Assembly (NCBI RefSeq): GCF_024171565.1
Contig: NZ_JALJZZ010000002.1
Coordinates: 186,001-250,000 of the forward strand
Reading direction: 5' to 3'
Source of the DNA: Okibacterium sp. HSC-33S16
GTDB taxonomy: Bacteria > Actinomycetota > Actinomycetes > Actinomycetales > Microbacteriaceae
Length of the DNA stretch: 64,000 nt
The position numbers and the translations under genes were made by a program. Position 1 is the stretch's first letter. Every line of letters begins with the position of its first letter. The notes under the pieces were generated by a model. That model worked only from the letters and a program-made list of their open reading frames with translations. It was not told the DNA's origin and did no database searches. This document shows, in pieces, positions 31,861-64,000 of the stretch.

Positions 31861-31905
31861 CCGCCAGCCGCCTTCGGTGCGTGTCGCGCCTCCGGCGGCT
31901 GGCGG
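31861..31905. repeat. 12-bp inverted repeat (hairpin)
   Basis: CCGCCAGCCGCC (31861-31872) pairs perfectly with GGCGGCTGGCGG (31894-31905) around a 21-nt loop. It lies 116 bp after the S-subunit gene, too far for a typical terminator, but could be a repeat element or the end of a remnant. Confidence 0.5.
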
Positions 31906-47345: not shown

Positions 47346-48205
47346 GCTGTTGCTCCGGCCTGCAGTCCCTGAGCCTTCTGCTCGGCCAGCAGACGGTCAC
47401 GGTCCGCCCGGCGAACCTCTTGCCGGTCGGGGTCCGGCACCGGAGCGGCCAGGAACAGCCGCTGGGTGTAGGGGTGCGTCGGCGCGCTGGTGACCTGGTC
47501 GCCGTCGCCCCATTCGACGATCTCGCCGTGGAACATCACAGCGACTCGGTGGCTGAGGTGACGCACAACGGCGAGGTCGTGCGAGACGAAGAGGTAGGCG
47601 ACGCCGGTGCGCTCCTGAATCTCTTTGAACAGGTCGAGCACCCGTGCCTGGGTTGAAAGGTCGAGTGCGGAAACTGGTTCGTCGCAAACGATCAGTGCGG
47701 GGTCCAGTGCGAGTGCCCTCGCGATGGCGATCCGCTGGCGCTGCCCGCCGGAGAACTCCCGGGGAAGTCGATCGCCCGCATCGCTCGGCAGGCCCACCTG
47801 ATCGAGCAAATCGGCAACGCGACGAGCGGCTGCCTTGCCCTCGATCTTGCGCATGGTGAGCGGCTCGACGAGGATCTGCTCGATCGTCAGTGACGGGTTG
47901 AGCGAGGTGTACGGGTCCTGGAACACGACCTGAATGTCGCTCGAGAGGCTGCGTCGCTCACGGCGGCCCAGGTGGGCGATGTCTTTGCCCTTGTAGAGGA
48001 TCTCGCCACCAGTCACCGGTGCGAGACCGAGGACAGCGCGGCCAAGGGTGGTCTTGCCTGAGCCCGACTCCCCAACCAGGCCCACCGTTTCTCCGGGCCG
48101 GATGTCGAGGGACACGCCCTTGAGGGCACGGAAGGGATCCTTCCGGAACCCTTTGACGGGGTATTCAACAATGACGTTCTTGACGTCGAGGAGAGGTTCG
48201 GTCAT
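47342..48205 (-). CDS. ABC transporter ATP-binding protein (OppF/DppF type)
   Basis: 287 aa. One nucleotide-binding domain: Walker A GLVGESGSGKTTLG (about 38-51), Q-loop FQDPYTSLNP, signature EFSGGQRQRIAIAR (about 145-158), Walker B ALIVCDEPVSALD (about 165-177) and switch His in LFVSHDLAVVRHL; the C-terminal oligopeptide-type extension (HPYTQRLFLAAPVPDPDRQE) follows. ATG 48205 overlaps the previous stop (ATGA); the frame upstream of it is not conserved. With the permease-ATPase fusion it completes the two-NBD engine of the importer. Confidence 0.92.
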   Translation of the reverse strand: MTEPLLDVKNVIVEYPVKGFRKDPFRALKGVSLDIRPGETVGLVGESGSGKTTLGRAVLGLAPVTGGEILYKGKDIAHLGRRERRSLSSDIQVVFQDPYTSLNPSLTIEQILVEPLTMRKIEGKAAARRVADLLDQVGLPSDAGDRLPREFSGGQRQRIAIARALALDPALIVCDEPVSALDLSTQARVLDLFKEIQERTGVAYLFVSHDLAVVRHLSHRVAVMFHGEIVEWGDGDQVTSAPTHPYTQRLFLAAPVPDPDRQEVRRADRDRLLAEQKAQGLQAGATA

Positions 48206-50016: not shown

Positions 50017-50954
50017 GCGAGCCTCACCTTCGGGTTGAGCCAGCCCTGGAGCAGGTCGATGAGCAGATTAATAATGACCACCATGGCCGCAATGGCGACG
50101 ACCAGGCCCATCACCATGGGAATGTCGCCCTGGCTGGTCGCCGTGACGGCGACCTGTCCGAGACCGGGTATGGCGAAGATTCGCTCAACAATGACAGCAC
50201 CTCCGAGGAGGCCGACAAACTGAACGGCGAGTACGGCGAGGGCGGGTCCACCCGCGTTTCGCAACACGTGCTTGAAGACCACACGGTTGAAGGAGAGGCC
50301 GCGGCTGCGGAGCGTACGAACGTAGTCGCGCTGAAGCGCGTCTACAACGGAACCGCGCACTTGTTGCGCGACACCAGCGATGCCGCCGATCGCCAGCGCA
50401 ATGATAGGGAGCGTGACGGTTGCGAGCCAACCGGTTGCCGACTCGGTCAGCGGAACGTATCCCGTTGGCTTGAACCACTTGAGGTTGAGCGCGAAGAGAG
50501 TGACGAGGCCCAAAGCGATGAGGAAGCCGGGGATCGCAAAGCCGAGGATGGAAACGCCTTGGACGACCTTGTCGACCCAGCCGCCGCGAACCGCGGCCCA
50601 CACGCCGATGATGACGGCGACGATCGCGGTAATGACGGTCGCCCCGATGACGATCGACAGGGTGACGCCCAGTCGCGAGGTGATCCCCGAGGAGACCATC
50701 TCACCCGTGAACCAACTGGTTCCGAAGTCGCCAGTGACGGCGTGGGACAGCCAGTCGATGTACTGCACGAGCAGAGGTCGATCGAGACCGAGTTCTGTGG
50801 TCTTCTGGGCGACCGTCTCTGCGGTGGCCTGCTGACCGAGGATGCGTCGCGCAATGTTGCCACCGCCGACATACAGCAGCATGTAGGCGAGCGTGGATAT
50901 GACGAACAGGAGAACGACTCCGGAGAGTAGCCGTCGCAGAATAAAACCAAACAC
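50013..50954 (-). CDS. ABC transporter permease (DppB/OppB type)
   Basis: 313 aa, six membrane helices. DppB family pattern: MFGFILRRLLSGVVLLFVIS start, GLDRPLLVQYIDWLSHAVTG then DFGTSWFTGEMVS (about 53-85), and the EAA-loop DYVRTLRSRGLSFNRVVFKH (about 208-227). It pairs with the DppC-like half of the next protein to form the channel. ATPase interaction is through that loop. The gene overlaps the fusion gene by 4 nt and follows the binding-protein gene by 70 nt. Confidence 0.92.
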   Translation of the reverse strand: MFGFILRRLLSGVVLLFVISTLAYMLLYVGGGNIARRILGQQATAETVAQKTTELGLDRPLLVQYIDWLSHAVTGDFGTSWFTGEMVSSGITSRLGVTLSIVIGATVITAIVAVIIGVWAAVRGGWVDKVVQGVSILGFAIPGFLIALGLVTLFALNLKWFKPTGYVPLTESATGWLATVTLPIIALAIGGIAGVAQQVRGSVVDALQRDYVRTLRSRGLSFNRVVFKHVLRNAGGPALAVLAVQFVGLLGGAVIVERIFAIPGLGQVAVTATSQGDIPMVMGLVVAIAAMVVIINLLIDLLQGWLNPKVRLA

Positions 50955-51024: not shown

Positions 51025-52545
51025 CTAGGACTTCGGAGTGAAGTTCCAGAGGTAGGGGTAAGCGTTGCCGACCTGCGTCTTTACGTCGGTCTTGGCATCG
51101 GTGACGAAGCTGGACTGCATGCGGTACCAGGGAGCGAACCACGCCTGCTCAACGATGTATGTGTTGAGTTCCTTCACGGCTGCGTCCGACTCGTCCTTTG
51201 AACCGTTGTGGACGGTCTCGATGAGCGCGTCGACCTTCGGGTCCTGGTACTTCGTCGGGTTGAAGGTAGCGGTTGGTGCGATCGAGAAGTTGATCAGCGC
51301 CCAGTCCGGGTCCTGCTGCAGGATCATGTAGGTCGATCCGTACTTGGGAGCCAGGATGTCCTGAATGAAGTTGTTACCAGCATCCGTGAAGTTGACGGTG
51401 ATTCCGACGTCCTTCAACTGCTGCCCGATCAGGGTGAAGACCGTGTTGCCGAGCAGAGCGCTTGACGGCATGTTGAGGGTGAGGCCGTCTGCGTAACCCG
51501 CTTCTGCGAGCAGGTCCTTGGCCTTTTCGGGATCGTACGAGTAGTAGGAGTCCAGCTCCTTGTCGTAGCCGACGGAGTTGGTCGGGAAGATCTGGGTCGT
51601 CGGTGTGCCGAGGCCCTGGCCGACGGCTTCAAGGAGTGCCTTGGTGTCGAATGCGTAGTTGATCGCCTGGCGGACACGGACATCGCCGAGCGCCGGCTCG
51701 ATGGTTCCACCGCGGTCGAAGAGGATAAGACCCGTCCAGTTGAGTTCGAACGCGTTGACTGTGTAGCCGGCCGCTTCCATCTCTCCGAGGTCGTTGTTGC
51801 TTGGGGTGTTCGCTGCGTTAACCTGTCCACCCTTGATCGCGTTCAAGAGCGATGTCGGGTCTGCGTAGACCTTGAGTGACAGTGCGTCGTAGTGCACGGT
51901 GTCGGGGTTCCAGTAGTCCGGGTTCTTTTCGAACTCGTACGACGTTCCTACGACCGTCTTGCCTGTGTCGAGGATGTACGGCCCTGAACCGACCGGGTTC
52001 GTCTTGATGTCTTTGTTTTCGAACGAGGCGGGGCTCTGCACCATGCCGGCGTTCTGCGTGAGCGCGATCAGGAGCGCCGGGTCGGACTGGCTGAGTGTGA
52101 TCTCGACCGTGGTGGCATCGACGGCCTTGGCGTCCGCGACGGCCGCCAGGAGCGACTTGTTGGGCGACGTGCCATCGCGGAAGCGAAGCAGGTTCTGCGC
52201 TGCGGCCTCTGCGTCGAACTTGGTGTCATCGGTGAATGTGACGTCGTCGCGGAGCGTGAGGGTCAGGACGGTGTTGTCCTCGTTGTACTCCCACTTGGTG
52301 GCGAGGTTTTCTTCGATCTCGCCCTCGGGGTTCGCCTTGAGAAGCGTGTCGTAGACCGCCTGACCGTATGGCGATTCATTGGCGAAGTTGATCGCCTGCG
52401 CCTCGAATGTCGTCGCCGGAGCGAGGACTCCAAGGGTGAGCTTGTCGGAGCTTGCGGAATCGTCGGTACTGCCGCCTGCGGAGCATCCCGTCAGGCCAAG
52501 TGCGAGCACGGCCACAACTGCGGCGGCTCTCTTCCATCGGAACAT
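51025..52545 (-). CDS. ABC transporter substrate-binding lipoprotein (SBP_bac_5)
   Basis: 506 aa. A lipoprotein signal opens it: KRAAAVVAVLALGLTGCSAG with the lipobox LTGC at about 18-21. The family-5 binding fold follows (about 36-500), with SPYGQAVYDTLLKANPEGEI, TKWEYNEDNTVLTLTLRDDV and VRQAINYAFDTKALLEAVGQ. Family 5 includes peptide binders and also oligosaccharide binders, as in some plant-glycan operons; the downstream glycosidases favour a sugar ligand here. First gene of an eight-gene operon, divergent from the TetR regulator. Confidence 0.92.
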   Translation of the reverse strand: MFRWKRAAAVVAVLALGLTGCSAGGSTDDSASSDKLTLGVLAPATTFEAQAINFANESPYGQAVYDTLLKANPEGEIEENLATKWEYNEDNTVLTLTLRDDVTFTDDTKFDAEAAAQNLLRFRDGTSPNKSLLAAVADAKAVDATTVEITLSQSDPALLIALTQNAGMVQSPASFENKDIKTNPVGSGPYILDTGKTVVGTSYEFEKNPDYWNPDTVHYDALSLKVYADPTSLLNAIKGGQVNAANTPSNNDLGEMEAAGYTVNAFELNWTGLILFDRGGTIEPALGDVRVRQAINYAFDTKALLEAVGQGLGTPTTQIFPTNSVGYDKELDSYYSYDPEKAKDLLAEAGYADGLTLNMPSSALLGNTVFTLIGQQLKDVGITVNFTDAGNNFIQDILAPKYGSTYMILQQDPDWALINFSIAPTATFNPTKYQDPKVDALIETVHNGSKDESDAAVKELNTYIVEQAWFAPWYRMQSSFVTDAKTDVKTQVGNAYPYLWNFTPKS

Positions 52546-52658: not shown

Positions 52659-53264
52659 ATGACCATTACCGGGAAACCGCGAGGCAATTACGCCAAAACC
52701 GCAGGTCGGCGCAGAGAAATTCTCGAGGCAGGAATCGAAGTTTTTTCTGCGGGAGGATTCCGAAGCGGCTCAATTCGGGAGATCGCCGAGCGCGTCGGCA
52801 TGAGCCAAGCGGGTCTTCTGCACCACTTTGCGAACAAGAATGAGCTGCTCGCGGCCGTACTCGAATTGCGCGACGATCTATCCCGCGAGTACACGACCGG
52901 TGAAGAAGAAGACGGTCTCGAGACGATTCGCGGGCTCATCAAGCTGGTCGAGTACAACTCGAGCGTGCCCGGGCTCGTCGAGCTTCACACAACACTCTCC
53001 GCAGAGGCAACGGCGCCCGATCATCCGGCTCACGAGTACTTCGTGCGCCGGTATGTGTGGGTGAGCTCGTTTATCACTGCGGCTTTCGAGCGCATGAAAG
53101 CCAAAGGTCAACTGGTGCCAGGCGTGGACCCTGAAGCAGCAGCTCGCGGAATGATCGCCATCATGGACGGCGCTCAGGTGCAGTGGCTCCTCGATAAGGA
53201 GTCACTGGACATGGCCGAGGAGACCCGGATGTTTGTGCGTCTGCTGATCACCGTCGACCTCTAG
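52659..53264 (+). CDS. TetR-family regulator of the glycan operon
   Basis: 201 aa. The DNA-binding domain (about 12-60) has TAGRRREILEAGIEVFSAGG then SIREIAERVGMSQAGLLHHF with the recognition helix. The C-terminal domain (about 80-200) is of the TetR_C_6 type (LVEYNSSVPGLVELHTTLSA, RGMIAIMDGAQVQWLLDKES). In actinobacteria this subgroup often controls glycoside and sugar-transport genes. Its position, divergent from the ABC importer and glycosidase operon, makes it the likely local repressor; the inducer is inferred to be a sugar from the imported glycan. Its stop is 6 nt from the convergent SDR stop. Confidence 0.88.
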   Translation: MTITGKPRGNYAKTAGRRREILEAGIEVFSAGGFRSGSIREIAERVGMSQAGLLHHFANKNELLAAVLELRDDLSREYTTGEEEDGLETIRGLIKLVEYNSSVPGLVELHTTLSAEATAPDHPAHEYFVRRYVWVSSFITAAFERMKAKGQLVPGVDPEAAARGMIAIMDGAQVQWLLDKESLDMAEETRMFVRLLITVDL

Positions 53265-53270
53265 GTTGGC

Positions 53271-54023
53271 CTAGAGCGTCGTCATGCCTCCATCAACCTG
53301 GAACGTGGCGCCCGTTGCGAAGCTGGATTCGTCGCTGGCCAGGAACACGGCGATTCCCTCAACATCTGACGCCTGACCGGGGCGGCCAAGCGGGATGCGC
53401 GAAACGATAGCCGCCCGGTCCACCGGATCGGTGGAGATCGCTGACACCAGTGGCGTCTCCGTGTACCCAGGGACGATGGTGTTTACCCGAATACCCTGGC
53501 TCGCGTATGCGCCGGCCACCGCGCGGCCGAGTCCGTGCATGCCCGCCTTCGATGAACTGTAGGCGGTGAAGGCCTGACCTTCTCCGTTGAGCGCCGTTGG
53601 GCTGCCGATGAGGACGATGGACCCACCACGCTGGAGCATCGAACGGACCCCGTGCTTGACGCTGAGGAAGGCGCCGGTGAGATTGATATCGATCGTCCGT
53701 CTCCAAACATCGAGGTCGAGGTCGGCGATCGGTGCGTCCTTGCCGAAGAGCTGAACCCCGGCACTCACTACGAGGATGTCGGGTGCGTACCCATCGGCCG
53801 TGAGGCCTTCGAACGCCGCCGAGACGCTGAGTTCATCGGACACGTCCATATGAACCGCGAGTGAATTCTCGACCTGGCCCGCAGCATCCGTTGCCGCCTC
53901 GATATTGACGTCGGTGAAGACGACTCGGGCGCCTTCGTGAGAGAACCGCTGCGCAATGGCGCGTCCAATGCCCGATCCGGCGCCAGTTACGACGGCGGTT
54001 TTTCCCTGCAAGCGATCGCTCAT
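53271..54023 (-). CDS. SDR, candidate D-apiose dehydrogenase
   Basis: 250 aa. Classical SDR: VVTGAGSGIGRAIAQRF (about 11-27), SAGVQLFGK (where NNAG is usual), catalytic Ser in VLIGSPTALNGEGQAFTAYS and Tyr/Lys in YSSSKAGMHGLGRAVAG (about 149-165); C-terminal GATFQVDGG. The ATG overlaps the ApnL stop by 4 nt, so the two are made together. ApnL opens D-apionolactone, and the step before that is oxidation of D-apiose; no Gfo/Idh-type apiose dehydrogenase is seen in the window, so this enzyme may do it. That is an inference from context. Frame upstream of 54023 is not SDR-like. Confidence 0.85.
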   Translation of the reverse strand: MSDRLQGKTAVVTGAGSGIGRAIAQRFSHEGARVVFTDVNIEAATDAAGQVENSLAVHMDVSDELSVSAAFEGLTADGYAPDILVVSAGVQLFGKDAPIADLDLDVWRRTIDINLTGAFLSVKHGVRSMLQRGGSIVLIGSPTALNGEGQAFTAYSSSKAGMHGLGRAVAGAYASQGIRVNTIVPGYTETPLVSAISTDPVDRAAIVSRIPLGRPGQASDVEGIAVFLASDESSFATGATFQVDGGMTTL

Positions 54024-55870
54024 GATGGTCTCTTTCGTTCGACGATGTCGTTGGTGTCCGGCGATGATGTTGTGGTGTTGGCCGCAGACGAAAGTCTGAG
54101 TACTGCGTACGGCGCTATTTCGATGGATGACGTGTGGCCGCCGACGGTGACAACAACTGCGGCGGCGGGTCCGCTGCCGAGGTTGGTCAGAAGTGCCGAC
54201 CACGATCCATCCGGCTTTCTCGAACCGATGCACCAGACGCCGCGTGGAACTGACGAAGGCAGAAGGAGTTCGCCGCCTCCCAGTCTTGCCAGGGCGGTGA
54301 TTGCGTGAGCCACCGGATAGGCTCCAGCGTGATTGCGAAGCCCACGGGGACCAAACGCTTCAAAGTAGCTCACGCTCGCGACGTTTGCCTTGTCTGTCGC
54401 CGAGGCGATGGCCGCAAAACTGGCGATGGTCCATGCTTCGAGGGCGTCCGAAGACTGGCGGGCATCGGTCGCATCGGTGGTGAGTTCGGCGCCGTAACCG
54501 CTCGAGAGGTCGGAGGGCGCGTCCTGGTTAGAGGTGCTCGTAGCGACGGCATTGAACCGGGAACGCAAGGTGATCGGGCCGATGTGAAGCGGTCGCCCGA
54601 GCGCGATGTCGCCTGCGCTGCGCGCGACGACGGCTTGCATCGGAATGGATTCGATGAGTTGTGCGCGCTCTGTGGCATGCATTTGCGGGGTGAGTGAAAA
54701 GGTGAACTCTGGAATAGCGTCAGGCAGTCGACCGTGCTCGCGGTTGAGCTCGGTGAAATGGGATCGCGCTCCACCGAGGAGTGTCACCCCCGGGAGTAGT
54801 TGCTTCGCCGCCTCGGCGAGGGCCGCCCACAGCGGCGGTTCGGTGACGTGGCTACTGCCCGAGAAAACTCCCAACCTCGCTACTTCCGCGCCACTTCTCT
54901 CGACGACAGCAACGGCCTCGCGAACGTCATCGGGGGTGTCGGCAACAATTCGAACGTCAAGTGTGAGGTCGCCGGCTTCGGAGATAGCGCGGGACAGGGC
55001 CGCAGGCCAGCTCGGTGTTCGCGTATCAAGTTCGACGAGAAGAGCTCGAACCCCGGTTGGAATCGGAGGCGCCTGCTCGCTCGGCATTGCAGCATCCGGG
55101 GCGGTCGACGCCCCCAACGTCAGGTCAGGAACCTGCCGGCCAGTTCGGATTAGTTCGATGGTTGCCGCGGGTTCCAGAGCCACCGGGGGCCATACGCGCT
55201 CTGAGGAGAAGGACACCGACTGCGTCACGCTCTCGCCGCTCTCGAGCGGGTATGGGAACGGGAGCGCGAGCGGCCGGCTGTACGTCTTATAGCTCGCGTC
55301 AGTCCAGTTGCGCTGGTCCTCCATCTCGAAAATGTCGCCCGCGAAAGTCGCTTGAGTGTGCACCCCGTCGTTGTCCCAAGTGAGTGAGCGGATGTCGAAT
55401 GCCGGCTGATGTGGTGACACGTTCGACGGGAATCGAGTTGTCTTCTCGTCGTCGGCTGTTGCGACGATGAGCGGCGTTCCGGAGAGTTCGGGAGGATGCA
55501 GGACGACGAGGCCGAGTCGATTGGTGAGGAACTCCCGGGACGTTGTTGCCGTGAGGCTGATGGTCAGAATGTCTTCGTGATGAACGATGTCGACCGCGGC
55601 GGTGATGTCGACGCCGAACCCGCGCATGCTCAAGCGGAGCCGGTGGCCATCCTTCGTGGGCTCGAATGCCTCTACCGTGGCCGGCACGGTGTTCCAGTCC
55701 TGGTCACGTGCGACGGCACGCACGCTGCGAACCACAGGGCTGTCGTCGAACGTCAGATCGGCGATCTCATCGCCGCGAAGTTCGAAGGCCCACCGGCCGA
55801 GTTCAACAGGGATAGGCGTCGGCTCGGGTGACCACAGCCGGTCCAGCCGGTCAGCCTCGGTTTCGCTCAT
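54020..55870 (-). CDS. apnL: D-apionate lactonase (ApnL)
   Basis: 616 aa. ApnL hydrolyses D-apionolactone to D-apionate in D-apiose catabolism. From memory of the family, the diagnostic part is DIFEMEDQRNWTDASYKTYS followed by RPLALPFPYPLESGE (about 202-236), preceded by FLTNRLGLVVLHPPELSGTP (about 131-150). The first ~245 residues are a beta-rich domain, the middle a TIM-barrel-like domain (VRALLVELDTRTPSWPAALS, FTELNREHGRLPD), and the end a beta domain (WCIGSRKPDGSWSALLTNLG). AAGGAG lies 5 nt before the ATG. It sits 31 nt after the nucleoside-hydrolase-like gene and overlaps the SDR. Confidence 0.8.
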   Translation of the reverse strand: MSETEADRLDRLWSPEPTPIPVELGRWAFELRGDEIADLTFDDSPVVRSVRAVARDQDWNTVPATVEAFEPTKDGHRLRLSMRGFGVDITAAVDIVHHEDILTISLTATTSREFLTNRLGLVVLHPPELSGTPLIVATADDEKTTRFPSNVSPHQPAFDIRSLTWDNDGVHTQATFAGDIFEMEDQRNWTDASYKTYSRPLALPFPYPLESGESVTQSVSFSSERVWPPVALEPAATIELIRTGRQVPDLTLGASTAPDAAMPSEQAPPIPTGVRALLVELDTRTPSWPAALSRAISEAGDLTLDVRIVADTPDDVREAVAVVERSGAEVARLGVFSGSSHVTEPPLWAALAEAAKQLLPGVTLLGGARSHFTELNREHGRLPDAIPEFTFSLTPQMHATERAQLIESIPMQAVVARSAGDIALGRPLHIGPITLRSRFNAVATSTSNQDAPSDLSSGYGAELTTDATDARQSSDALEAWTIASFAAIASATDKANVASVSYFEAFGPRGLRNHAGAYPVAHAITALARLGGGELLLPSSVPRGVWCIGSRKPDGSWSALLTNLGSGPAAAVVVTVGGHTSSIEIAPYAVLRLSSAANTTTSSPDTNDIVERKRPS

Positions 55871-55901
55871 GACTCTCCTTCTTGAGCAGCGTTCAGGCCA
55901 T

Positions 55902-56942
55902 TCATTCGTTCGCTGCTTGCCAGCGGCCGAACTCGGAGAGCTTGAGATAGAAGTCCTCGAACATCAAACGGTTATCAAGCCGTGTGTACACCCGCATCGG
56001 CCTGGCACCGGCAACGGCTTCATAGTTGCCACCCTCCGTGATTGCTGGTGTGGGCATCGAGACGTAGTCACTCGACGACGGGTCTGCTTCGAAGGTCGAC
56101 TGCAACGCGGTCAGCAGCACGAGGGGCGAATCTCCCATCGCGTACGTTTCTGCGGGGCCGCTGGGGCCAGCCGCCAAGCGCAGGATCTGTGCAACTTCGG
56201 CGTACAGATACTCGCCGAGCGAGCCGGTCGTCGCGACGCGAAGCCGCAGCTCGGCGTCGGATATCAGGCACTGTCGATAAGCGTCTCGAGGCACCTGCCA
56301 AACACGCAGCGTGGAGTCGTTGAACACGACCTGTGCAGCGAGAAGATCGATGAGAAGGTTGTACTCAATTGGCATCGCGTTCGGGGGTGGAACGGCGATT
56401 CCGTCGTGCTCGGCGCCGCCAATCCAGATCACCGTCAAGCGCTCCGCGATCCGCGGTTCACGCAGGTAGGCGGATGCCAAGTCGGTTAGCCCGCCGCCAG
56501 CTGCGTAAAACAACGGCGAGGCGGTGTCATCCCTCATCGCTTCCGCGATGATCGCGTCGACCGCTGCCGACTCGCGTGGTGTTTTCCGATCGGAGAGCGC
56601 GGTGTTCGACCCGGCAAAGATCCGTTCGTGCGCTTCCAGGCCCATGCGGTCGAACACGTGCCGCACGACCGCGACGGCATTTTCTGCCGAGTGAGAGCTG
56701 GGATCGAAGGGATCCTCCTCCCGAAGATGCGAGCCCACGACGAGTCGAATGTCGACAGAGGGGGACAAGAGATGATGAACCAGCTGAAACAGGTCATCGG
56801 GGTCACCGGAGAAGTCATTGTCGATGATCACTCGTGCCCGAGAGGAACCGAGAGGAACTATCGCCTGCCAGGGACTCGTGTTCAACGACCATCGTTTCGA
56901 CGTTGACAGAGGAGGGACAGGAGAGCGGGGGATCGACGTCAT
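55902..56942 (-). CDS. Nucleoside-hydrolase-fold protein
   Basis: 346 aa. Ca2+-dependent N-ribosyl hydrolases of this fold have an N-terminal Asp cluster; here SRARVIIDNDFSGDPDDLFQ (about 34-53) matches DNDxxxDPDD. Other landmarks are FAGSNTAL, FYAAGGGLTDLASAYL, VIWIGGAEHD (about 173-182) and EYNLLIDLLAAQVVF (about 193-207). In ribonucleoside hydrolases a catalytic His follows further on; none is obvious at the usual place. It is first in an operon with ApnL and the SDR, so it may act on an apiose glycoside rather than a nucleoside; this is speculation. AAGG lies about 6 nt before the ATG. Confidence 0.8.
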   Translation of the reverse strand: MTSIPRSPVPPLSTSKRWSLNTSPWQAIVPLGSSRARVIIDNDFSGDPDDLFQLVHHLLSPSVDIRLVVGSHLREEDPFDPSSHSAENAVAVVRHVFDRMGLEAHERIFAGSNTALSDRKTPRESAAVDAIIAEAMRDDTASPLFYAAGGGLTDLASAYLREPRIAERLTVIWIGGAEHDGIAVPPPNAMPIEYNLLIDLLAAQVVFNDSTLRVWQVPRDAYRQCLISDAELRLRVATTGSLGEYLYAEVAQILRLAAGPSGPAETYAMGDSPLVLLTALQSTFEADPSSSDYVSMPTPAITEGGNYEAVAGARPMRVYTRLDNRLMFEDFYLKLSEFGRWQAANE

Positions 56943-56983
56943 TGGTGACCTTAGGTTCGCGCACGGCGATCGAGAGATTGACT

Positions 56984-56999
56984 AACCGGTTGACCGGTT
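56984..56999. promoter_or_regulatory. Candidate operator between the apnL operon and GH78
   Basis: AACCGGTTGACCGGTT (56984-56999) contains the palindrome AACCGGTT and a second 7-bp copy, ACCGGTT, directly after it. It lies in the divergent control region and may control both directions. TTGACT (56978-56983) just before it could be a -35. Confidence 0.5.
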
Positions 57000-57160
57000 G
57001 TCGCTAACTTAGTACGCCGTTCCCGGGTAACCTAAAGCCGAAGGGTGAGCGTTACCCGTTCGTTATAAATTGAACACCCACGACTTGATTTGAAAACCGA
57101 ATGTCCATAAGGTTTTGGGCACGCCTCAATTGTCGAGCGCCCTACCTCAATGGAGAGTTC

Positions 57161-60007
57161 ATGCCTGAAGTCGTACCCGTGTCTGTCTTGTGGGCGGAGG
57201 GACGCGGCCGCCCCGAGTTTCTCGCCACCGCATCACCCAGCCTGTCGTGGCGGGTCACTACGGATCTCCCCAACTGGGTGCAAAAGGGCTTCACCCTCGA
57301 CTGTCGCACCAATGCTGGTACGACGAGTGTCAAGGTTTCGACCGGCAATTCGCAGCACGTTCCGTGGCCATTCGAGCCGCTCACTGCCTACGACTCCGTC
57401 GACGTGCGAGTCCACGTAGACGGTCTCAGTGACGCGGGAGAAGGGCCCACCCCTTCAACAGCGTCTCCCAGCGCTTGGATTACTCTGCGTACGGGTCCGC
57501 TGAGCGTCGCCGACTGGACCGCCGACTTCATCGCTGCCGAACCAACCGGTGCTGAGCCTGACGAGTCGCGAGGAACCTCGCTCTTCCGTTCCGTCTTCTC
57601 CCCGCGATCTGACGTGGCCACGGCGATCCTGTCCATTTCATCCCATGGGATCTACGAGGCAACTCTCAATGGAGAGACCATCGGCGACGAGGTCCTCACG
57701 CCGGGCTGGACGAGCTACGACGCTCGCCTGACATTCCAGAGCTTCGACGTCACTGCTGGCGTCCGTTCCGGACGCAATGTTTTGGGCGCGACCGTTGCGG
57801 ACGGCTGGTACGGCGAGCGATTCGGCTTCGACGGGAACTTCTCACGCAGTTACGTCGGGCCTCGCGCCCTGACAGCGCAGCTTCGCATCACATACGCCGA
57901 TGGAACATCGGAAATGATTACAACGGATGCCACGTGGTCGGCCGCAACGAACGGTCCGGTTTGTCGCGCTGGAATCTATCCCGGCGAGCACTACGACGCT
58001 CGACTCGAGACCGCGGCGCTTTCGGACCCCGACACCGATTTTGTGAACTCCGTACGCGCGACTGTTATCGGGGCGGACGCGTCGCGCCTAACCCCGTCAT
58101 TTGCCCCACCGGTTCGGCGAATCGAGCGGGTCGCGGCCCGAAAGATCTTCACCACGCCCGCAGGCAAAACCGTCATCGATTTCGGCCAGAATCTCGTCGG
58201 ATGGCTCGAGATTCGGGTTGATGCTCCCGAGGGGCACACCGTCACTCTTCGTCACGCCGAGGTACTCGAGGACGGCGAACTCGGTGTCCGACCTCTGCGA
58301 TTCGCCGAGGCGACCGACTCGTTCACCGGGTGTGGGGATGGTGTCCGGACCTGGAGTCCTCGATTCACCTTCCACGGCTTTCGTTATGCCGAGATCGAGA
58401 ACTGGCCGGGTGAGCTGTCGATCGACGACGTCACGGCGGTCGTCATTCACAACGACATGGTGCGCACGGGTGCGTTGGAGACGAGCAACCCGAAGCTCAA
58501 CCAGCTGCATCAGAATGTGCTGTGGGGCATGCGCGGAAACTTCCTGAGCCTGCCGACAGACTGTCCGCAGCGAGACGAGCGCCTCGGCTGGACGGGCGAC
58601 ATCCAGGTTTTTGCCCCGACCGCAAGCTACCTCTACGACGTGTCAGGTTTCCTAGGGTCCTGGCTCCGCGATGTCGACCTTGACCAACAGCGCGCCGACG
58701 GAGTCGTACCCTTCGTGGTGCCCAATCCACTGCCGATGCCGCCGCTCGCCGCGGCGGCATGGGGTGACGCGGCCACGTTGGTGCCGGACACGCTCTTCAC
58801 CCGCTATGGTGACTCCGCGGCGCTCAATCATCAGTACTCGAGCATGCGCTCCTGGGTCGAGACCGTAGCGGCGCTCGCTGGCGACAATTACCTCTGGACC
58901 GGCGGGTTCCAGTTCGGCGACTGGCTCGACCCCAGCGCTCCGCCAGAGAACCCGGCGCAGGCAAAGACGGACTCCGATATTGTCGCCACGGCGTACTTCT
59001 TCCACTCGACAGCACGGTTGGCTGCGGCCGCAACGGAACTCGGCCACGAAGATGACGCGCGCCGCTTCGCGGACCTTGCCGAACGCATCCGCTCTGCATT
59101 CCTTCGTGAATACGTCACTCCGGCCGGACGCATAGTCTCGGACGCCCACACGGCGTACGCCCTTGCGCTCGCGTTTCGCATTGTCGTCGAGCCCGACATG
59201 GTCGCGTTGGCTGGTGCACGCCTCGGAGAGCTCGTCCGGGCACACGGCTTTCGGATCGGCACCGGCTTCGTCGGCACGCCGCTCATCGCGGACGCACTGT
59301 GTCTCGGTGGGCAAAGCGACGTGGCTTACCGTCTGCTGCTCGAGGAAGGCTGCCCGTCCTGGCTGTACCCGATCTCGATGGGGGCAACGACGATTTGGGA
59401 GCGGTGGGATTCGATGCTGCCCGACGGCAGTATTAACCCGGGCGAGATGACCTCGTTCAACCACTACGCGCTTGGTGCGGTCGCCGACTGGATGCACCGG
59501 GCGATCGGCGGCATCGCGCCTGCTGAGCCTGGATATCGCACCATTGAAATCGCGCCGATTCTGGGCGGGGGCCTTACCTCGTCGACGGCCAGTCTCGATA
59601 CCGGTTATGGAACCGTGTCAGTCGAGTGGTCGCTCAAGGGCACGACCCTCTCGGTGCGCGCCGTCGTGCCGCCCAACACACAGGCGCGCGTCGTTCTTCC
59701 CGGTCGTGATGCGGAAGTTGTGGGGTCGGGAACGCATGAATGGACGACGAATGCCGCCTCTGTGCTCACCGATGCGGCTCGGCCGGTGTACTCACTGGAA
59801 TCTTCACTGGCTGACATCGTGACGGATGCCGACGCGCGTGCCGCTGTTGAAGGTGCTTTCGCTGATCTCGGCTACTTCATCGGTTTGGGCTGGACCTCGG
59901 GCGGCAAGTGGAAGAGCGACTCGACTCTGGCCGATGCACTCATCATGTTCCCGCCGGAAGGGCTCACCCACCTTCACGAAGTCTTCGCGCGGTTGAACGC
60001 CCGCTAG
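57161..60007 (+). CDS. GH78-family alpha-L-rhamnosidase
   Basis: 948 aa, no signal peptide. The rhamnosidase plan is complete: N-terminal sandwich (about 1-130), GH78 N domain (about 135-310, SHGIYEATLNGETIGDEVLT, VLGATVADGWYGERFGFDGN), the (alpha/alpha)6 barrel (about 420-780) with LPTDCPQRDERLGWTGDIQV (catalytic Asp/Glu cluster), TGGFQFGDWLDPSAPPENPA and MGATTIWERWDSMLPDGSIN, then a C-terminal sandwich. An extra ~75 residues after the last sandwich resemble the C-terminal helical module of some GH78 and GH3 enzymes. ATG 57161 has GGAGAG upstream; the frame extends to 57101. Rhamnose is a partner sugar of apiose in pectin and flavonoid glycosides. Confidence 0.92.
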   Translation: MPEVVPVSVLWAEGRGRPEFLATASPSLSWRVTTDLPNWVQKGFTLDCRTNAGTTSVKVSTGNSQHVPWPFEPLTAYDSVDVRVHVDGLSDAGEGPTPSTASPSAWITLRTGPLSVADWTADFIAAEPTGAEPDESRGTSLFRSVFSPRSDVATAILSISSHGIYEATLNGETIGDEVLTPGWTSYDARLTFQSFDVTAGVRSGRNVLGATVADGWYGERFGFDGNFSRSYVGPRALTAQLRITYADGTSEMITTDATWSAATNGPVCRAGIYPGEHYDARLETAALSDPDTDFVNSVRATVIGADASRLTPSFAPPVRRIERVAARKIFTTPAGKTVIDFGQNLVGWLEIRVDAPEGHTVTLRHAEVLEDGELGVRPLRFAEATDSFTGCGDGVRTWSPRFTFHGFRYAEIENWPGELSIDDVTAVVIHNDMVRTGALETSNPKLNQLHQNVLWGMRGNFLSLPTDCPQRDERLGWTGDIQVFAPTASYLYDVSGFLGSWLRDVDLDQQRADGVVPFVVPNPLPMPPLAAAAWGDAATLVPDTLFTRYGDSAALNHQYSSMRSWVETVAALAGDNYLWTGGFQFGDWLDPSAPPENPAQAKTDSDIVATAYFFHSTARLAAAATELGHEDDARRFADLAERIRSAFLREYVTPAGRIVSDAHTAYALALAFRIVVEPDMVALAGARLGELVRAHGFRIGTGFVGTPLIADALCLGGQSDVAYRLLLEEGCPSWLYPISMGATTIWERWDSMLPDGSINPGEMTSFNHYALGAVADWMHRAIGGIAPAEPGYRTIEIAPILGGGLTSSTASLDTGYGTVSVEWSLKGTTLSVRAVVPPNTQARVVLPGRDAEVVGSGTHEWTTNAASVLTDAARPVYSLESSLADIVTDADARAAVEGAFADLGYFIGLGWTSGGKWKSDSTLADALIMFPPEGLTHLHEVFARLNAR

Positions 60008-60019
60008 ACCTGAAGAAAT

Positions 60020-60057
60020 AGGAGGGGCGATCGTTCTCGCGAACGACCGCCCCTCCT
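60020..60057. terminator. Terminator between convergent GH78 and apnO operons
   Basis: AGGAGGGGCG (60020-60029) pairs with CGCCCCTCCT (60048-60057), and after one mismatch TCGTTC (60031-60036) pairs with GAACGA (60041-60046) around TCGC. It lies 13 nt after the GH78 stop and can serve both strands. Confidence 0.8.
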
Positions 60058-60064
60058 CGTCTTA

Positions 60065-60928
60065 CTACCGCTCGATCTTGTCGAGGTGCAGCATGGCGGC
60101 GAGGTTCTTGTCGAGCTCCTCGTCGGTGAAGACCTTTTTCCAGTCGTCCTTGATAATCGAGGACTTGCCGTAGTCCATGGCGATGAGGCACGCGTCGCTG
60201 AACGGGTTGTCACCGCGGAGGCCGTTTGCGAGGGCAACCTGGGTGTGACCGAGAAGGATCGACCGTGCGGCAGGCTCCGGCACACCCATCGTGTTCACGG
60301 CTTCGTCGAGTGCTTCCTTGAGGAGCGCCCCAATCATGCAGGCGATGGTCTCGACGAGGGTCGGCTCAAGCTGGGCGAGCTGCTTGATGGTGACCCAGTG
60401 CACGTCGACGACCGGTGCATAGATGGCGCGGACGGTGGCCTCAACAATGGCCCGCTTCTCGGGGTCGTCCGATTCGATCGCCGCGATGGCGTCCTGCGGT
60501 GCCGCGATTCCGCCGAAGGTGTCTGCGTACTCTTCGGGAGTGGTGCGCTGCAGGAAGATTGAGGGGTGGCACGGGTGTGCAACGGCCTGGATGACGTCCT
60601 CGCGCGTGGTGAGCAGGCCCGCGTAGGCAGCAGCCGGGTCGAGCGTCAGCACGATGGCTCCTGGCTTGAGCTGCGGAACGATTTCAGCGGTGACCGGCCC
60701 GAGCGCGAGGTCCGGAACGGCGAGAACGATGATGTCTGCGTCGACGATCGCCTCCGCGGTCTCGGTGAGCTCGCGGCCTGCCGCGCGGACGCGGTCCTGG
60801 CCGACGGGCGAGTTTTCACTGTAGAAAACGGTGTGGTCAGTCTTCGAGAGGTTGTCGGAGACGCGGGTCCCCATCTTTCCTCCGGCGCCGATCACGGCGA
60901 TGGTGGGGTTGAACGTTGTGGTGCTCAT
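60065..60928 (-). CDS. apnO: D-apionate oxidoisomerase (ApnO)
   Basis: 287 aa. Converts D-apionate to 3-oxo-isoapionate with NAD+. The Rossmann motif VIGAGGKMGTRVSDNL (about 12-27) and the family-specific TLDPAAAYAGLLTTREDVIQ then AVAHPCHPSIFLQ (about 94-126) agree with ApnO as I know it. The C-terminal half is an all-helical domain (about 165-287) with EPTLVETIACMIGALLKEAL and ILLGHTQVALA. ATG 60928 lies within the last codons of oiaC, whose sequence supplies AAGGAG. It is the last gene of the five-gene operon. Confidence 0.88.
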   Translation of the reverse strand: MSTTTFNPTIAVIGAGGKMGTRVSDNLSKTDHTVFYSENSPVGQDRVRAAGRELTETAEAIVDADIIVLAVPDLALGPVTAEIVPQLKPGAIVLTLDPAAAYAGLLTTREDVIQAVAHPCHPSIFLQRTTPEEYADTFGGIAAPQDAIAAIESDDPEKRAIVEATVRAIYAPVVDVHWVTIKQLAQLEPTLVETIACMIGALLKEALDEAVNTMGVPEPAARSILLGHTQVALANGLRGDNPFSDACLIAMDYGKSSIIKDDWKKVFTDEELDKNLAAMLHLDKIER

Positions 60929-61719
60929 CTGTTTCTCCTTAGGTAATCCAGGGTGGTGGTTGTCCAGGCAATTTCTGCCTGGACGGTGGTTTCGGGGTCG
61001 CCTTGCCAGGGCAACCAGTGTTCGACGATTTCATTGATGTTGCGGGCCTGCGGCTGAACCACGTCGAGCAGGTGGCGGTAGTCGTGCAGCCCGTCGCCCA
61101 TCGGTGCGCCGCTGTAGGAAAACCCGACCCAGCCGTCCTGCCGCGCGAAGGCGAAGTCCTTGACATGGACATTGCGGGTGAGTGGTGCGCATCGTTCGAC
61201 GGCGTCTCTAGGTAGTTCCAGCCCGGCGACGACGTTCGCCGGGTCAAGGCAAATGCCGAGGGAACCACTGTCGACGCGTTCGATAAGCCCGACCAGATCT
61301 GCCGTGGGAATCTGCTCGTAGGTCTCGAGCGCGAGGGTCACTCCGGCCGCCTCGAACGACGGCATCGCGTCGGTGAGAATCTGTTCTGCTTCGCCGAGGC
61401 TCGGGCGATGATCCGGGGCGAACACCATGCTGCGGATAAGGGTGGCGTCGAAGATCTCGGCCAGTCGCAGGAATGACGTGAGGTGCCCGGGCTCGATGCC
61501 TTTGGTCCCCAGCTCGATCGTCAGTCCGAGGTCGCGTGCTTCGGCCGCAGCCGCGGCGAGCTCGGAATGCGACATGGAGAGCAGAGGGGCATAGTCGCAG
61601 ATCTGGAACAGGTCGACGTCGAGCTCACGGGTGCGCTCGAAAGCCCCGACGAGACTGAGTGGTTCGGACACCCGTGACGAGTGCTGCCAGAAGAAGGCGT
61701 AAGTGCCGAGTCCGATCAT
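60925..61719 (-). CDS. oiaC: 3-oxo-isoapionate decarboxylase (OiaC), TIM-barrel isomerase-like
   Basis: 264 aa. Xylose-isomerase-like (AP2Ec) barrel. OiaC removes CO2 from 3-oxo-isoapionate to give L-erythrulose. Metal residues expected in this fold are seen in VTLALETYEQIP (Glu, about 137-148), LGICLDPANVVAG (Asp, about 166-178), TRNVHVKDFAFAR (His) and NEIVEHW (Glu). The assignment to OiaC instead of a generic sugar isomerase rests on its place between LerI and ApnO, overlapping both by 4 nt; the fold alone would not decide. Confidence 0.78.
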   Translation of the reverse strand: MIGLGTYAFFWQHSSRVSEPLSLVGAFERTRELDVDLFQICDYAPLLSMSHSELAAAAAEARDLGLTIELGTKGIEPGHLTSFLRLAEIFDATLIRSMVFAPDHRPSLGEAEQILTDAMPSFEAAGVTLALETYEQIPTADLVGLIERVDSGSLGICLDPANVVAGLELPRDAVERCAPLTRNVHVKDFAFARQDGWVGFSYSGAPMGDGLHDYRHLLDVVQPQARNINEIVEHWLPWQGDPETTVQAEIAWTTTTLDYLRRNR

Positions 61720-62486
61720 GAGCGCACCGCCGATTCAGCCAGTGTTGCCGCTTCGTCGAGCACGGACCCCAGCGCCGTCGGGTCGTGCGCGAAACGGCCG
61801 AGGAACAGTCCGTCGACATCGGAGCCAAGTGTGGTCAGCAGGCCCGGTCCGGCGCTTCCGCCGTAGATCACCGAGCTGCCGTCGCGACCGTCCATCGAAT
61901 CGAGGACGGTGCGCAGTTCGGCGCAGACAGCTCGGATGTGGTCGGCGCTGGCGGGTTCGGCCGCACCAATCGCCCACACGGGTTCGTAAGCGACGATGAC
62001 CCGGCCGGCGGGTGCACCGTGCAAGGCGGATCGCAATTGGCGGATGACGTCGCGAGCAGCGGCATCCGCTTCACCTTGATGAATTTCGCCGATGCAGAGA
62101 ACCGGAGCAATGCCGTTGCGGAGGGCCGCCGTGGTTTTCGCCGCCACGATCTCCTCGGTCTCTGCGAAGATGCGTCGTCGTTCTGCGTGCCCGACTTCGA
62201 CCACACCGACACCGAGCTCGGCGAGTTCGACTCCGCTGACCTCGCCGGTATACGCGCCGTTGTCGTCCCAGAACAGGTCTTGGGCTCCAACCACGACATC
62301 GGTGCCGTCCAGGGTGTCGATCGCCGCGGGGATTGCGACAAAACTCGGGATGACGAAGAGTTCGACATCGCCGCTCTTCAGTGCTTCGCTGTCGCGAGCC
62401 AGGTCAGCAATGCTCGAAAACCACTCCCGCGCGCGGGCGTACCCGAAGTACATCTTCAGGCTTACCCCGACGACGACGGGAGCCAT
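61716..62486 (-). CDS. lerI: L-erythrulose-1-phosphate isomerase (LerI), TIM-like
   Basis: 256 aa. A triose-phosphate isomerase homologue: SLKMYFGYARA (active Lys11), VEVGHAERR with the catalytic His (about 97-105), IVAYEPVWAIGAAEP with the catalytic Glu (about 165-179) and YGGSAGPG near the phosphate site. SLKMYFGY in place of the NWKMN of true TIM marks the LerI/EryH branch, which turns L-erythrulose 1-phosphate into D-erythrulose 4-phosphate. ATG 62486 overlaps the derI stop by one base (TGATG). A frame extension to 62573 is discarded because it runs into derI and is not TIM-like. Confidence 0.85.
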   Translation of the reverse strand: MAPVVVGVSLKMYFGYARAREWFSSIADLARDSEALKSGDVELFVIPSFVAIPAAIDTLDGTDVVVGAQDLFWDDNGAYTGEVSGVELAELGVGVVEVGHAERRRIFAETEEIVAAKTTAALRNGIAPVLCIGEIHQGEADAAARDVIRQLRSALHGAPAGRVIVAYEPVWAIGAAEPASADHIRAVCAELRTVLDSMDGRDGSSVIYGGSAGPGLLTTLGSDVDGLFLGRFAHDPTALGSVLDEAATLAESAVRS

Positions 62487-62953
62487 CAGCAGCTTCCGAA
62501 CTCTTCGTACGCGTCGAGGACCGCAACCTTCTCGGCGCTCGCCGACGATTCGTCGAAACGGTAGGTGAGCCACTCGCGCACCAGGCGACGGGCAAGTTCA
62601 ACACCGATCACGCGCTGACCCAACGCGAGCACCTGGGCGTTGTTGGACAGAACCAGCCGTTCGACGGAAAAGCTGTCGTGGGCGACGGATGCGCGGATGC
62701 CTTTCACCTTGCCCGCTGCCATGGCGACGCCCATGCCGGTTCCGCAGATCAAGAGCCCGCGGTCCGCTTTGCCTGCAGCGATGGCCTCACCGACGGTAAC
62801 GCCGACCTTGGGGTATGGGGTGTGTCCGTTCGCGTCGACGCCCACGTCGGTGACGCTTTCGACCAGATCGTGAGCGAGGAGGTCCTTCTTGAGGATCTCT
62901 TTGTAATCGAAACCAGCGTCATCCGATCCGATGACGATGCGGAGCTTGTCCAT
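62486..62953 (-). CDS. derI: D-erythrulose-4-phosphate isomerase (DerI), RpiB-like
   Basis: 155 aa. RpiB fold; DerI converts D-erythrulose 4-phosphate to D-erythrose 4-phosphate, an entry point to the pentose phosphate pathway and aromatic synthesis. Landmarks: IVIGSDDAGFDYKEILKKDL at the start, the active-site Cys in LLICGTGMGVAMAAGKVKGI (about 68-87), ASVAHDSFSVERL and NNAQVLALGQRVIG (about 103-117). A ribose-5-phosphate isomerase role cannot be excluded from sequence alone, but the operon speaks for DerI. ATG 62953 overlaps the lerK stop (TAATG). Confidence 0.85.
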   Translation of the reverse strand: MDKLRIVIGSDDAGFDYKEILKKDLLAHDLVESVTDVGVDANGHTPYPKVGVTVGEAIAAGKADRGLLICGTGMGVAMAAGKVKGIRASVAHDSFSVERLVLSNNAQVLALGQRVIGVELARRLVREWLTYRFDESSASAEKVAVLDAYEEFGSC

Positions 62954-64000
62954 TAGTTGTCTCGTTTCTGTTCCGAAAGAACGATCGCGATGCGCTGCAC
63001 GATGAGCGCGAGGGAATGGGCGCCCGCGTCGGGCGTGCCGAGAGACTTCTCGGCATGCGGGCGCGCGCGGCCCATGAGGGGGAGGAGATCGGCCGTTGCG
63101 GCGGCGGCAGCGGTCGACGCGTTCGCGGCGGTGGCCCAGGCGTCCGCCAGCCGTGCTCCGGCAGCGACTTCGGTCGACAGGGTGTCGGCGAACGGCACCA
63201 GTGAATCCACCATGGTTTTGTCGCCGGGTACAGCGCCGAACTTCAGGACGCTGTCTTTAGCCGCGTGCACTCCGGCCACGACGGTTTCTCGAGTCGGCGC
63301 TGCGGTGTTGCCGAGTTCGGCGCCCACCGCGGTGAGGGCTGCGCCCCAGAGTGCACCCGAAGTGCCGCCGGCGCGGTCCGACCAGGCATCGGCGGCCAGG
63401 GTGAGGAGCGTCTGAGCGCCCGCGCCGCGGGTGAGGGCGTCGGCGGCTGCCGCTTGAGCGGCCTGCGCTCCACGGTTCATTCCGATGCCGTGGTCGCCGT
63501 CACCCGCGACGGCGTCGATGCGTCCGAGCTCGTCGGCGTTCTCGTTCACAACCGCGGCGATGGCCTCGATCACTTCAGCGGCGATTGCTGCCGCTGCCTT
63601 TGATTCCTCGCTGGCGTCGGGGATGTCGTCAATCGCGTCAGTGAGCTCGACGATCGGAGCCTGTTCCGCGGCAACGACAGAACCCTTGCGGTAAGCCGGA
63701 GTGTCGGCGGGAGCCCGCCAGAAGGTTTCAAGTTCGTCGTCCAGCCAGAAGAGGGTGAGCGAGGCGCCGGCCATGTCGAAGCTGGTCACGAGCTCGCCGA
63801 CCTCGGGGTCGACGACGGTCACTCCGGCCTCAGTGAGAAGCTCGGCGACCTTGCGGTAGACGACGAAGAGTTCTTCGTATTTCACGGACCCAAGGCCGTT
63901 GAGGATCAGCCCAACACGCTGGCCCTCTGCTGATTCCACTCCGTCGGGCAGTTCACCCAGGAGTGTGGAGACGAAGAGCTCTGCCAGGCCGTCGGCCGTG
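62953..64000 (-). CDS. lerK: L-erythrulose kinase (LerK), DhaK-DhaL fusion, cut by the right edge
   Basis: At least 348 residues; the frame is open to base 64000, so the N-terminal part of the DhaK domain is outside. The visible end of DhaK has LILNGLGSVKYEELFVVYRK and VTSFDMAGASLTLFWLDDEL. After a linker the DhaL domain shows DAVAGDGDHGIGMNRGAQAA (Mg-ATP site), DAWSDRAGGTSGALWGAALT, KFGAVPGDKTMVDSLVPFAD and MGRARPHAEKSLGTPDAGAH. DhaK and DhaL in one chain means an ATP-dependent kinase of the dihydroxyacetone kinase family; the operon points to L-erythrulose as substrate. Confidence 0.85.
   Translation of the reverse strand, partial: TADGLAELFVSTLLGELPDGVESAEGQRVGLILNGLGSVKYEELFVVYRKVAELLTEAGVTVVDPEVGELVTSFDMAGASLTLFWLDDELETFWRAPADTPAYRKGSVVAAEQAPIVELTDAIDDIPDASEESKAAAAIAAEVIEAIAAVVNENADELGRIDAVAGDGDHGIGMNRGAQAAQAAAADALTRGAGAQTLLTLAADAWSDRAGGTSGALWGAALTAVGAELGNTAAPTRETVVAGVHAAKDSVLKFGAVPGDKTMVDSLVPFADTLSTEVAAGARLADAWATAANASTAAAAATADLLPLMGRARPHAEKSLGTPDAGAHSLALIVQRIAIVLSEQKRDN

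Follow-up and report, generated by a model that had tools for sequence, protein, structure and literature searches.

Background

The rare branched sugar apiose, a component of rhamnogalacturonan II, is also found in numerous flavonoid and saponin glycosides; to our knowledge, only a small number of enzymes are known to liberate or oxidise it. The oxidative route of rhizobia and Rhodobacteraceae is composed of an apiose dehydrogenase, ApnL, ApnO, OiaK and OiaX; in the OiaC branch of D-apiose catabolism, reported by Carter et al. in 2018, the ApnO step is said to be followed by a decarboxylation to L-erythrulose. Here, we describe a group of genes in a stretch of 64,000 nucleotides from Okibacterium sp. 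HSC-33S16 (C2:186001-250000, a contig of a 3.23-Mb genome; hereafter the window), which very probably forms a D-apioside utilisation locus. A first-pass annotation of the same DNA had confined a D-apiose locus to positions 52,659-64,000; the core was indeed found there, but the locus appears to extend to 39,410 on one side and past the window end, to an MFS transporter gene, on the other.

The OiaC branch is cited in PMC6302742 and PMC13001218. The latter also describes a non-oxidative D-apiose route (isomerase, kinase and AptAB) in Pectobacterium and E. coli ST131, and growth on D-apiose of E. coli strains with a transketolase-type apiose cluster. According to PMC10733421, tetritol catabolism employs the kinase LerK and the isomerases LerI and DerI, with D-erythrose 4-phosphate as the end product. 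Finally, PMC11747546 reports growth on D-apiose for strain LCG007, which has a cluster of the oxidative kind; a D-apiose dehydrogenase (EC 1.1.1.420) is listed among its genes.

The present locus has homologues of ApnL and ApnO and an RbsABC-DUF2291 set in common with the rhizobial oxidative route, and a DUF5060-Apiosidase gene lies nearby in R. leguminosarum. It differs in that an SDR takes the place of the Gfo/Idh/MocA dehydrogenase, ApnL is 29% identical, OiaC and L-erythrulose replace OiaK and OiaX, and a glycoside importer and IUNH, a protein of the nucleoside-hydrolase fold, are attached. It departs from the OiaC branch in its type of dehydrogenase and in the upstream module that is attached; compared with the tetritol module, L-erythrulose would come from OiaC and not from a tetritol dehydrogenase. 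In four family members (e.g. locus L127), this IUNH-TetR-Opp module is accompanied by a version of the non-oxidative route, whose isomerase-like gene is absent from the genome studied here.

Proposed pathway

From gene content, gene order, operator-like sites and co-occurrence, we infer the following scheme (coordinates in Table 1). Briefly, the Opp importer would take up apiose-bearing plant oligosaccharides or glycosides, from which the cytoplasmic-looking GH78, GH43, GH42 and GH3 enzymes, an Apiosidase-domain protein and perhaps IUNH would free D-apiose; RbsABC-DUF2291, just outside the window, could take up free apiose. The SDR would oxidise D-apiose to D-apionolactone, which ApnL would open to D-apionate; ApnO would convert this to 3-oxo-isoapionate by oxidation and rearrangement, OiaC would decarboxylate 3-oxo-isoapionate to L-erythrulose, and LerK, LerI and DerI would lead from L-erythrulose to D-erythrose 4-phosphate. 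The MFS transporter may take up apionate directly. A FadR-type regulator probably governs the catabolic and RbsABC units, and TetR the Opp unit.

That these genes serve one pathway had been proposed in the first-pass annotation, and the idea is supported by the common operator-like site, the ApnL-ApnO co-occurrence and the conserved gene set presented below. That annotation had overlooked the Opp importer and the glycosidases as well as the roles of IUNH and the SDR. Where it saw two operons, the minus strand has three or more units (Opp-GH, IUNH-ApnL-SDR and MFS-to-ApnO), to which the divergent TetR and GH78 genes are added.

The core operon and its conservation

All genes named in the first-pass annotation were recovered as open frames, in or close to the places it gave, the start of LerI being corrected to 62,486, and the overlapping starts and stops it had seen throughout 60,065-64,000 were confirmed: each minus-strand junction overlaps by 1 or 4 bases (LerK/DerI TAATG, DerI/LerI TGATG, LerI/OiaC ATGA and OiaC/ApnO ATGA). 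The window end cuts LerK, whose full gene is C2:248953-250683; beyond it lie the MFS transporter gene, a divergent FadR/GntR-type regulator gene and, further out, RbsABC-DUF2291 with an SMP-30-like gene. ApnO scored 192 bits with PF16896 (cut-off 25), which we take to be the ApnO family and which fits the rhizobial locus; its nearest solved chain is 5t57. The full LerK protein scored 734 bits with NF011049 (cut-off 492), the solved L-erythrulose-1-phosphate isomerase 11ef is the second-best chain for LerI, and DerI scored 184 bits with TIGR02133, the actinobacterial RpiB model (cut-off 168). Homologues of all three members of the module leading from L-erythrulose to erythrose 4-phosphate are thus present. 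In OiaC, residues E132, D159, H185 and E233 are invariant in 14/14 aligned sequences. The MFS protein is nearest to a galactonate-transporter model, below the cut-off of that model.

We compared the locus with named loci around ApnO, taken as the best 80 of 479 candidates encoding a relative, of which 68 are full length; gene presence was called at fixed identity limits. The full-length loci contain OiaC (68), FadR (66), LerK (61), LerI (60), DerI (59), ApnL (47), SDR (44), MFS (42) and GH78 (22). In the commonest order, FadR is divergent from MFS-LerK-DerI-LerI-OiaC-ApnO, and many loci go on with SDR-ApnL. ApnO-OiaC-LerI-DerI-LerK is therefore a conserved gene set and not a chance association. 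The nearest named ApnO relatives are from a Mycetocola metagenome-assembled genome (94% identity) and from Agromyces (84-92%).

A second survey covered 199 genomes of the family of the window (Microbacteriaceae). Strong ApnO matches (E <1e-40) were found in 46 genomes, 19 weaker ones being dropped, and wider loci were read for 32 of these 46 plus the window's own. ApnL was found in 39 genomes, 38 of which have ApnO (Fisher p 1e-31; independence of the genomes is assumed for this and the other genome-level Fisher tests, and genus sets were counted by hand). Conversely, 8/46 ApnO genomes have no ApnL match. This last count bears on another reading, in which 60-64 kb is a D-apionate operon fed by the MFS transporter and apiose oxidation by SDR-ApnL is optional. 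Plasmids of Erwinia and Pantoea with MFS-LerK-LerI-OiaC-ApnO and RpiB, but no ApnL in the stretch shown, speak for it, as do the nearest model of the MFS protein and one relative with GntP instead. It is compatible with a D-apioside locus, yet we consider it rather improbable, because here about 4 kb separate ApnO from SDR-ApnL, whose unit bears an operator-like site, and because RbsABC resembles its counterpart in the rhizobial apiose locus.

A route from erythritol or threitol, with ApnO and OiaC in other roles, is very improbable. LerK, LerI and DerI are indeed known from tetritol catabolism (PMC10733421). However, the GolD/DthD model reached 155 bits against a cut-off of 286, and in the profile check suggested by the first-pass annotation no tetritol dehydrogenase model passed its cut-off among the matches listed for ten proteins (for the SDR, 25 of 233), tetritol dehydrogenases elsewhere in the genome not being searched for. 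OiaC accompanies ApnO in 68/68 full-length loci, and two family members (L034 and L035) have OiaK- and RuBisCO-like OiaX-type genes adjoining ApnO-ApnL and RbsABC, at 387-468 bits, below their own 700-bit cut-offs. The dehydrogenase models, the OiaK/OiaX context and the constancy of OiaC all disfavour a pathway for erythritol or threitol only. L034 additionally retains an OiaC-like gene.

ApnL and a candidate D-apiose dehydrogenase

The ApnL block EDQRNW-x-D-x-S-x-KTY is invariant in 14/14 aligned sequences, the two rhizobial ones included, to which ApnL is 27-30% identical. Its predicted model comprises an N-terminal beta-sandwich and a TIM barrel, the nearest folds being of GH30/36/97 type at TM-scores of at most about 0.5. 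Both R. leguminosarum and S. meliloti have a Gfo/Idh/MocA gene that shares 4 bases with ApnL. At E 1e-30 this gene has no match in the present genome, so a Gfo/Idh dehydrogenase elsewhere in it was rejected at that threshold; three matches (31-38% identity) were found among the 199 family genomes. Here, ApnL is joined to the SDR gene by an ATGA overlap.

The SDR is present in 44/47 full-length ApnL-bearing named loci and stands next to ApnL in 41, while at ≥55% identity it occurs in 0/21 full-length loci without ApnL. The SDRs linked to ApnL are 59-72% identical to that of the window, the next full-length SDR being 38% identical; exceptions are a match of 52 residues in L056 and one of 45-47% over a locus-edge fragment in L035. 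The transcribed order in the window, ApnL then SDR, is opposite to the orders listed for the named loci, so the adjacency outlives a change of order. The present protein has a YSSSK motif. In SDRs, an Asp after the second strand is a rule for NAD+ preference; this Asp, also present, suggests NAD+ as the cofactor. The missing D-apiose dehydrogenase step is thus probably performed by the SDR, in replacement of the rhizobial Gfo/Idh/MocA enzyme. It might instead act on an aglycone or a polyol, with a remote enzyme oxidising apiose, since specificity is not readable from sequence and no equivalog cut-off was reached among the matches listed (25 of 233 models). We judge this unlikely given that the SDR at ≥55% identity is never without ApnL in the 68 loci and adjacent to it in 41/44 with both, and given the operator-like sites at SDR-ApnL pairs remote from ApnO.

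A common operator-like site

A palindrome near GGTCAACCGGTTGACC was found at the MFS/FadR promoter. A matrix was built from 30 sites of named loci, the genome of the window not being among them; the sites of the window are independent of it, the closest named ApnO having 94% identity. Within the 64 kb, the highest-scoring matrix site falls at 56,978 in the promoter between IUNH and GH78, with 17.7 bits against 12.9 for the runner-up. Beyond the window end, a site of 28.4 bits stands in the MFS/FadR promoter, and one of 18.7 bits (L002:12617-12636) lies between DUF2291-RbsABC and the SMP-30/gluconolactonase-like gene. Sites of ≥15 bits in 78 kb number three, all at promoters of this locus, against 0 in 20 Markov simulations of equal length. 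In the family, such a site occurs in 23/29 FadR promoters and 9/13 separate SDR promoters, compared with 1.7% of random 330-bp segments from the same loci, true sites included. At least six of the 32 family loci pair with named loci (L048/L159, L050/L204, L053/L182, L054/L197, L055/L185 and L057/L208), so these counts are partly dependent on the matrix. The nine SDR promoters include those of G168 (L144), where SDR-ApnL is 1.66 Mb from ApnO, and of G134 (L136), at about 190 kb; two others (L045 and L059) are divergent promoters common with MFS or OiaC. The 12-base core at one mismatch is absent from all 17 IUNH loci without ApnL (L126-L135 and L137-L143), which fits control by TetR rather than FadR there.

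The common site supports a single regulon of MFS/FadR, IUNH-ApnL-SDR and RbsABC-DUF2291, as predicted from these DNA motifs. Only the matrix separated the site: a 14-mer search of the window (≤3 mismatches) gave 6 against 3.5 expected, which is not significant. Sigma-70-type promoters numbered 0 at 52.4-60.2 kb, where 1.2 were expected. Terminator-like hairpins were 4 in the scanned stretch against 5.4 expected by chance, the one at the ApnO end having the longest stem. The SMP-30/gluconolactonase-like gene is a possible second lactonase.

IUNH, a candidate apiose-releasing hydrolase

The predicted model of IUNH (pLDDT 88) has nucleoside hydrolases as its best structural matches, and the protein is 13-22% identical to the solved ones listed. 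The metal-site Asp motif is kept, its residues being presumably the metal binders. In base-cleaving nucleoside hydrolases, a catalytic His normally stands before the C-terminal metal Asp; here, this leaving-group His is not there and Gly270-Asp271 is invariant in 22/22 aligned rows. Close homologues (E <1e-80) were found in 20 of the 199 family genomes, including the window's own; 72 weaker matches, a number of which are paralogues at 33-41% identity, were set aside. ApnL is present in 16 of these 20 genomes. The remaining four (L127, L130, L132 and L134) have an FGGY kinase and an AP_endonuc_2 protein a few genes away, and in the three loci scanned transketolase halves lie near IUNH (both in L127, one each in L130 and L132). 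L127 also has a SorC/DeoR-type regulator; compared with E. coli SE15, its transketolase halves are 47/38%, its kinase 40% and its regulator 38% identical.

ApnL and the isomerase-like gene never share a genome, and their union of 46/199 genomes contains 20/20 IUNH genomes (p 3.9e-15, independence assumed) and 14/14 IUNH genera (p 3.8e-8). One genome with IUNH and ApnL (G072) has no ApnO match, and one with IUNH and the isomerase-like gene (G090) also has ApnO. An OppA or OppB match lies beside IUNH in 17/20 genomes, none being seen in the stretches examined for G101, G016 and G071 (the last with a short flank). Because all 20 genomes carry markers of the oxidative or the isomerase-transketolase route, we regard IUNH as a candidate apiose-releasing hydrolase. 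The chances are about even that it is instead an ordinary ribonucleoside hydrolase, placed there by chance, or cuts another furanoside such as arabinofuranose. Its fold and its conserved Asp residues agree with that alternative, and so does the Apiosidase-domain protein, a competitor for the apiose-releasing role that is found in 14/20 IUNH genomes, the present one among them; moreover, 23/39 ApnL genomes and 3/7 isomerase genomes are without a close IUNH, so apiose use does not need it. The low identity to solved enzymes, Gly270-Asp271 in place of the His and the complete co-occurrence by genome and genus argue the other way.

A second IUNH-like group (L129:5614-6513 and L047:2190-3038) is 36-38% identical, has the N-terminal motif DxDxKNEADD and adjoins apiose genes in L047. 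We know of no earlier O-furanosidase of the nucleoside-hydrolase fold. The open-licence literature searched contained no paper joining apiose with nucleoside hydrolase or with Microbacterium; one mechanistic comparison brings nucleoside hydrolase together with furanosidase and glycoside hydrolase family. As a tentative proposal, to which we give somewhat less than an even chance, the family would use a cytoplasmic enzyme of nucleoside-hydrolase fold for apiofuranosyl O-glycosides and would have, in the SDR, a second D-apiose dehydrogenase of unrelated type; one and the same hydrolase-importer module would serve either of two unrelated apiose pathways.

Importer, glycosidases and apiose supply

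The Apiosidase-domain protein scored 63.6 bits with PF13204 (cut-off 26.5), and a single solved chain, 4n0r, matched it at E 0.01; we take BT1012, with a solved structure, to be the founding member of GH140. The protein of the window shares 46% identity with its counterpart from the apiose locus of R. leguminosarum. Homologues occur in 26/199 family genomes, of which 24 (all except G036 and G058) also contain ApnL or the isomerase-like gene (genus-level p 4.3e-8). The gene is directly 5' of SDR-ApnL with a 4-base overlap in L145, between TetR and IUNH in L141 and 78 bases from the ApnL match in G179. The TetR homologue adjoins Opp and IUNH in many loci, and GH42 holds the same position in L126, L127, L130 and L134. 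The RbsB encoded past the window end shares 61% identity with that of the rhizobial apiose locus, DUF2291 being common to both. By crude hydropathy, the glycosidases lack a signal-like N-terminus and OppA is lipoprotein-like, so hydrolysis is probably cytoplasmic. Platycosides carry chains such as Api-Xyl-Rha-Ara plus glucosides (PMC9952785); the Apiosidase-GH43-GH78-GH42-GH3 set would fit such chains, apiin and pectin fragments being equally possible substrates.

Table 1. Features of the predicted D-apioside locus (window positions; C2, contig position).
Feature	Position	Strand	Basis
DUF5060-'Apiosidase' (PF13204)-DUF5605 protein, candidate apiosidase	39410..41158	-	Pfam
GH43, beta-xylosidase-like	41162..42670	-	PF04616
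GH3 glycosidase	42667..45144	-	PF00933/PF01915
GH42 glycosidase	45189..47345	-	PF02449
Second Opp/Dpp-type ABC ATPase, OppF-like	47342..48205	-	open frame; 38% to ATPase half of OppC-OppD
Opp/Dpp-type permease-ATPase fusion OppC-OppD	48202..50016	-	
Opp/Dpp-type permease OppB	50013..50954	-	
Opp/Dpp-type substrate-binding protein OppA	51025..52545	-	lipobox-like N-terminus by eye
TetR-family regulator, divergent to OppA	52659..53264	+	PF00440
SDR dehydrogenase, candidate D-apiose 1-dehydrogenase	53271..54023	-	PF13561; context
ApnL-type D-apionolactonase	54020..55870	-	NF049900 212 bits; motif block; model
IUNH, candidate apiose-releasing furanosidase	55902..56942	-	PF01156; predicted model; co-occurrence
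Operator-like palindrome, IUNH/GH78 divergent promoter	56978..56997	.	matrix from other genomes
GH78 alpha-L-rhamnosidase, divergent to IUNH	57101..60007	+	PF17389
Terminator-like hairpin, 17-pair stem, just 3' of ApnO	60020..60057	-	
ApnO-type D-apionate oxidoisomerase	60065..60928	-	PF16896; solved chain 5t57
OiaC-type 3-oxo-isoapionate decarboxylase	60925..61719	-	PF01261; residue quartet; context
LerI-type L-erythrulose-1-phosphate isomerase, TIM family	61716..62486	-	second-best solved chain 11ef
DerI-type D-erythrulose-4-phosphate isomerase, RpiB family	62486..62953	-	TIGR02133 over cut-off
LerK-type L-erythrulose 1-kinase, DAK1-DAK2 fusion	62953..64000, on to C2:250683	-	NF011049

Evidence against a D-apioside locus

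Several results weigh against the interpretation as a D-apioside locus. Among the family assignments of the first-pass annotation, those of ApnO, LerI and LerK were upheld by search, while ApnL reached 212 bits with NF049900 (curated cut-off 750), which marks it as divergent, and DerI 137 bits with the DerI-specific NF051858 (cut-off 240); the ApnL homologues of the OiaK/OiaX-bearing L034 and L035 are likewise low (220 and 268 bits). No NCBIfam match was obtained for OiaC, the presence of an OiaC model in the library not being checked, and its assignment therefore rests on fold, residues and context. ApnL is missing within the stretch examined from 21/68 full-length named loci, so that apionate may in many cases be the sole substrate of the operon. 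By a hand tally, IUNH and the Apiosidase-domain protein are both lacking from 14/39 ApnL genomes; the release step is thus not constant. Finally, operator coverage of the family FadR and SDR promoters is incomplete, a site of ≥15 bits is present in 1/3 separate SDR promoters of named loci, and the 12-base core with ≤1 mismatch lies within 250 bp of FadR in 23/72 named loci.

Distribution

A search of 3 congeners gave strong matches to none of ApnO, ApnL and the Apiosidase-domain gene. Recent foreign DNA was rejected by composition, as GC content gave no signal (0.634 at 39.4-64 kb, 0.623 at 1-38 kb); at window positions 24000-32000 it drops to 0.57-0.58, compared with 0.63-0.65 upstream. A GntP gluconate-type transporter gene (L037:8696-10174) adjoins ApnO-OiaC in G174, a genome without an ApnL match. 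The plasmids mentioned above are those of Erwinia sp. E602 (L229) and Pantoea sp. At-9b (L230); the Erwinia plasmid proteins are 45-68% identical to those of the window and rhizobial ApnO only 41%, a hint that the genes were exchanged between actinobacteria and Enterobacterales. Among archaea, a Haloarcula sp. JP-L23 plasmid (CP050017.1:229965-230771) carries an ApnO homologue with 44% identity.

Conclusions

The core chemistry is known, and the SDR type of dehydrogenase, the link to the IUNH hydrolase and the regulon look new within the open-licence literature searched. Curtobacterium is a relative within the same family. For a relative of Curtobacterium citreum isolated on L-erythrulose, the uptake and kinase genes are called unknown in PMC12780249; the LerK-LerI-DerI genes would be candidates for L-erythrulose use there. 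Two candidates that lend themselves to testing emerge from the locus, a D-apiose dehydrogenase of a new type and possibly an apiosidase of a new fold, together with a predicted regulon. If IUNH is an apiosidase, it might become a tool for deglycosylating apiose-capped saponins. More generally, a route from plant glycosides to erythrose 4-phosphate is predicted in a family where the locus recurs in many genera.

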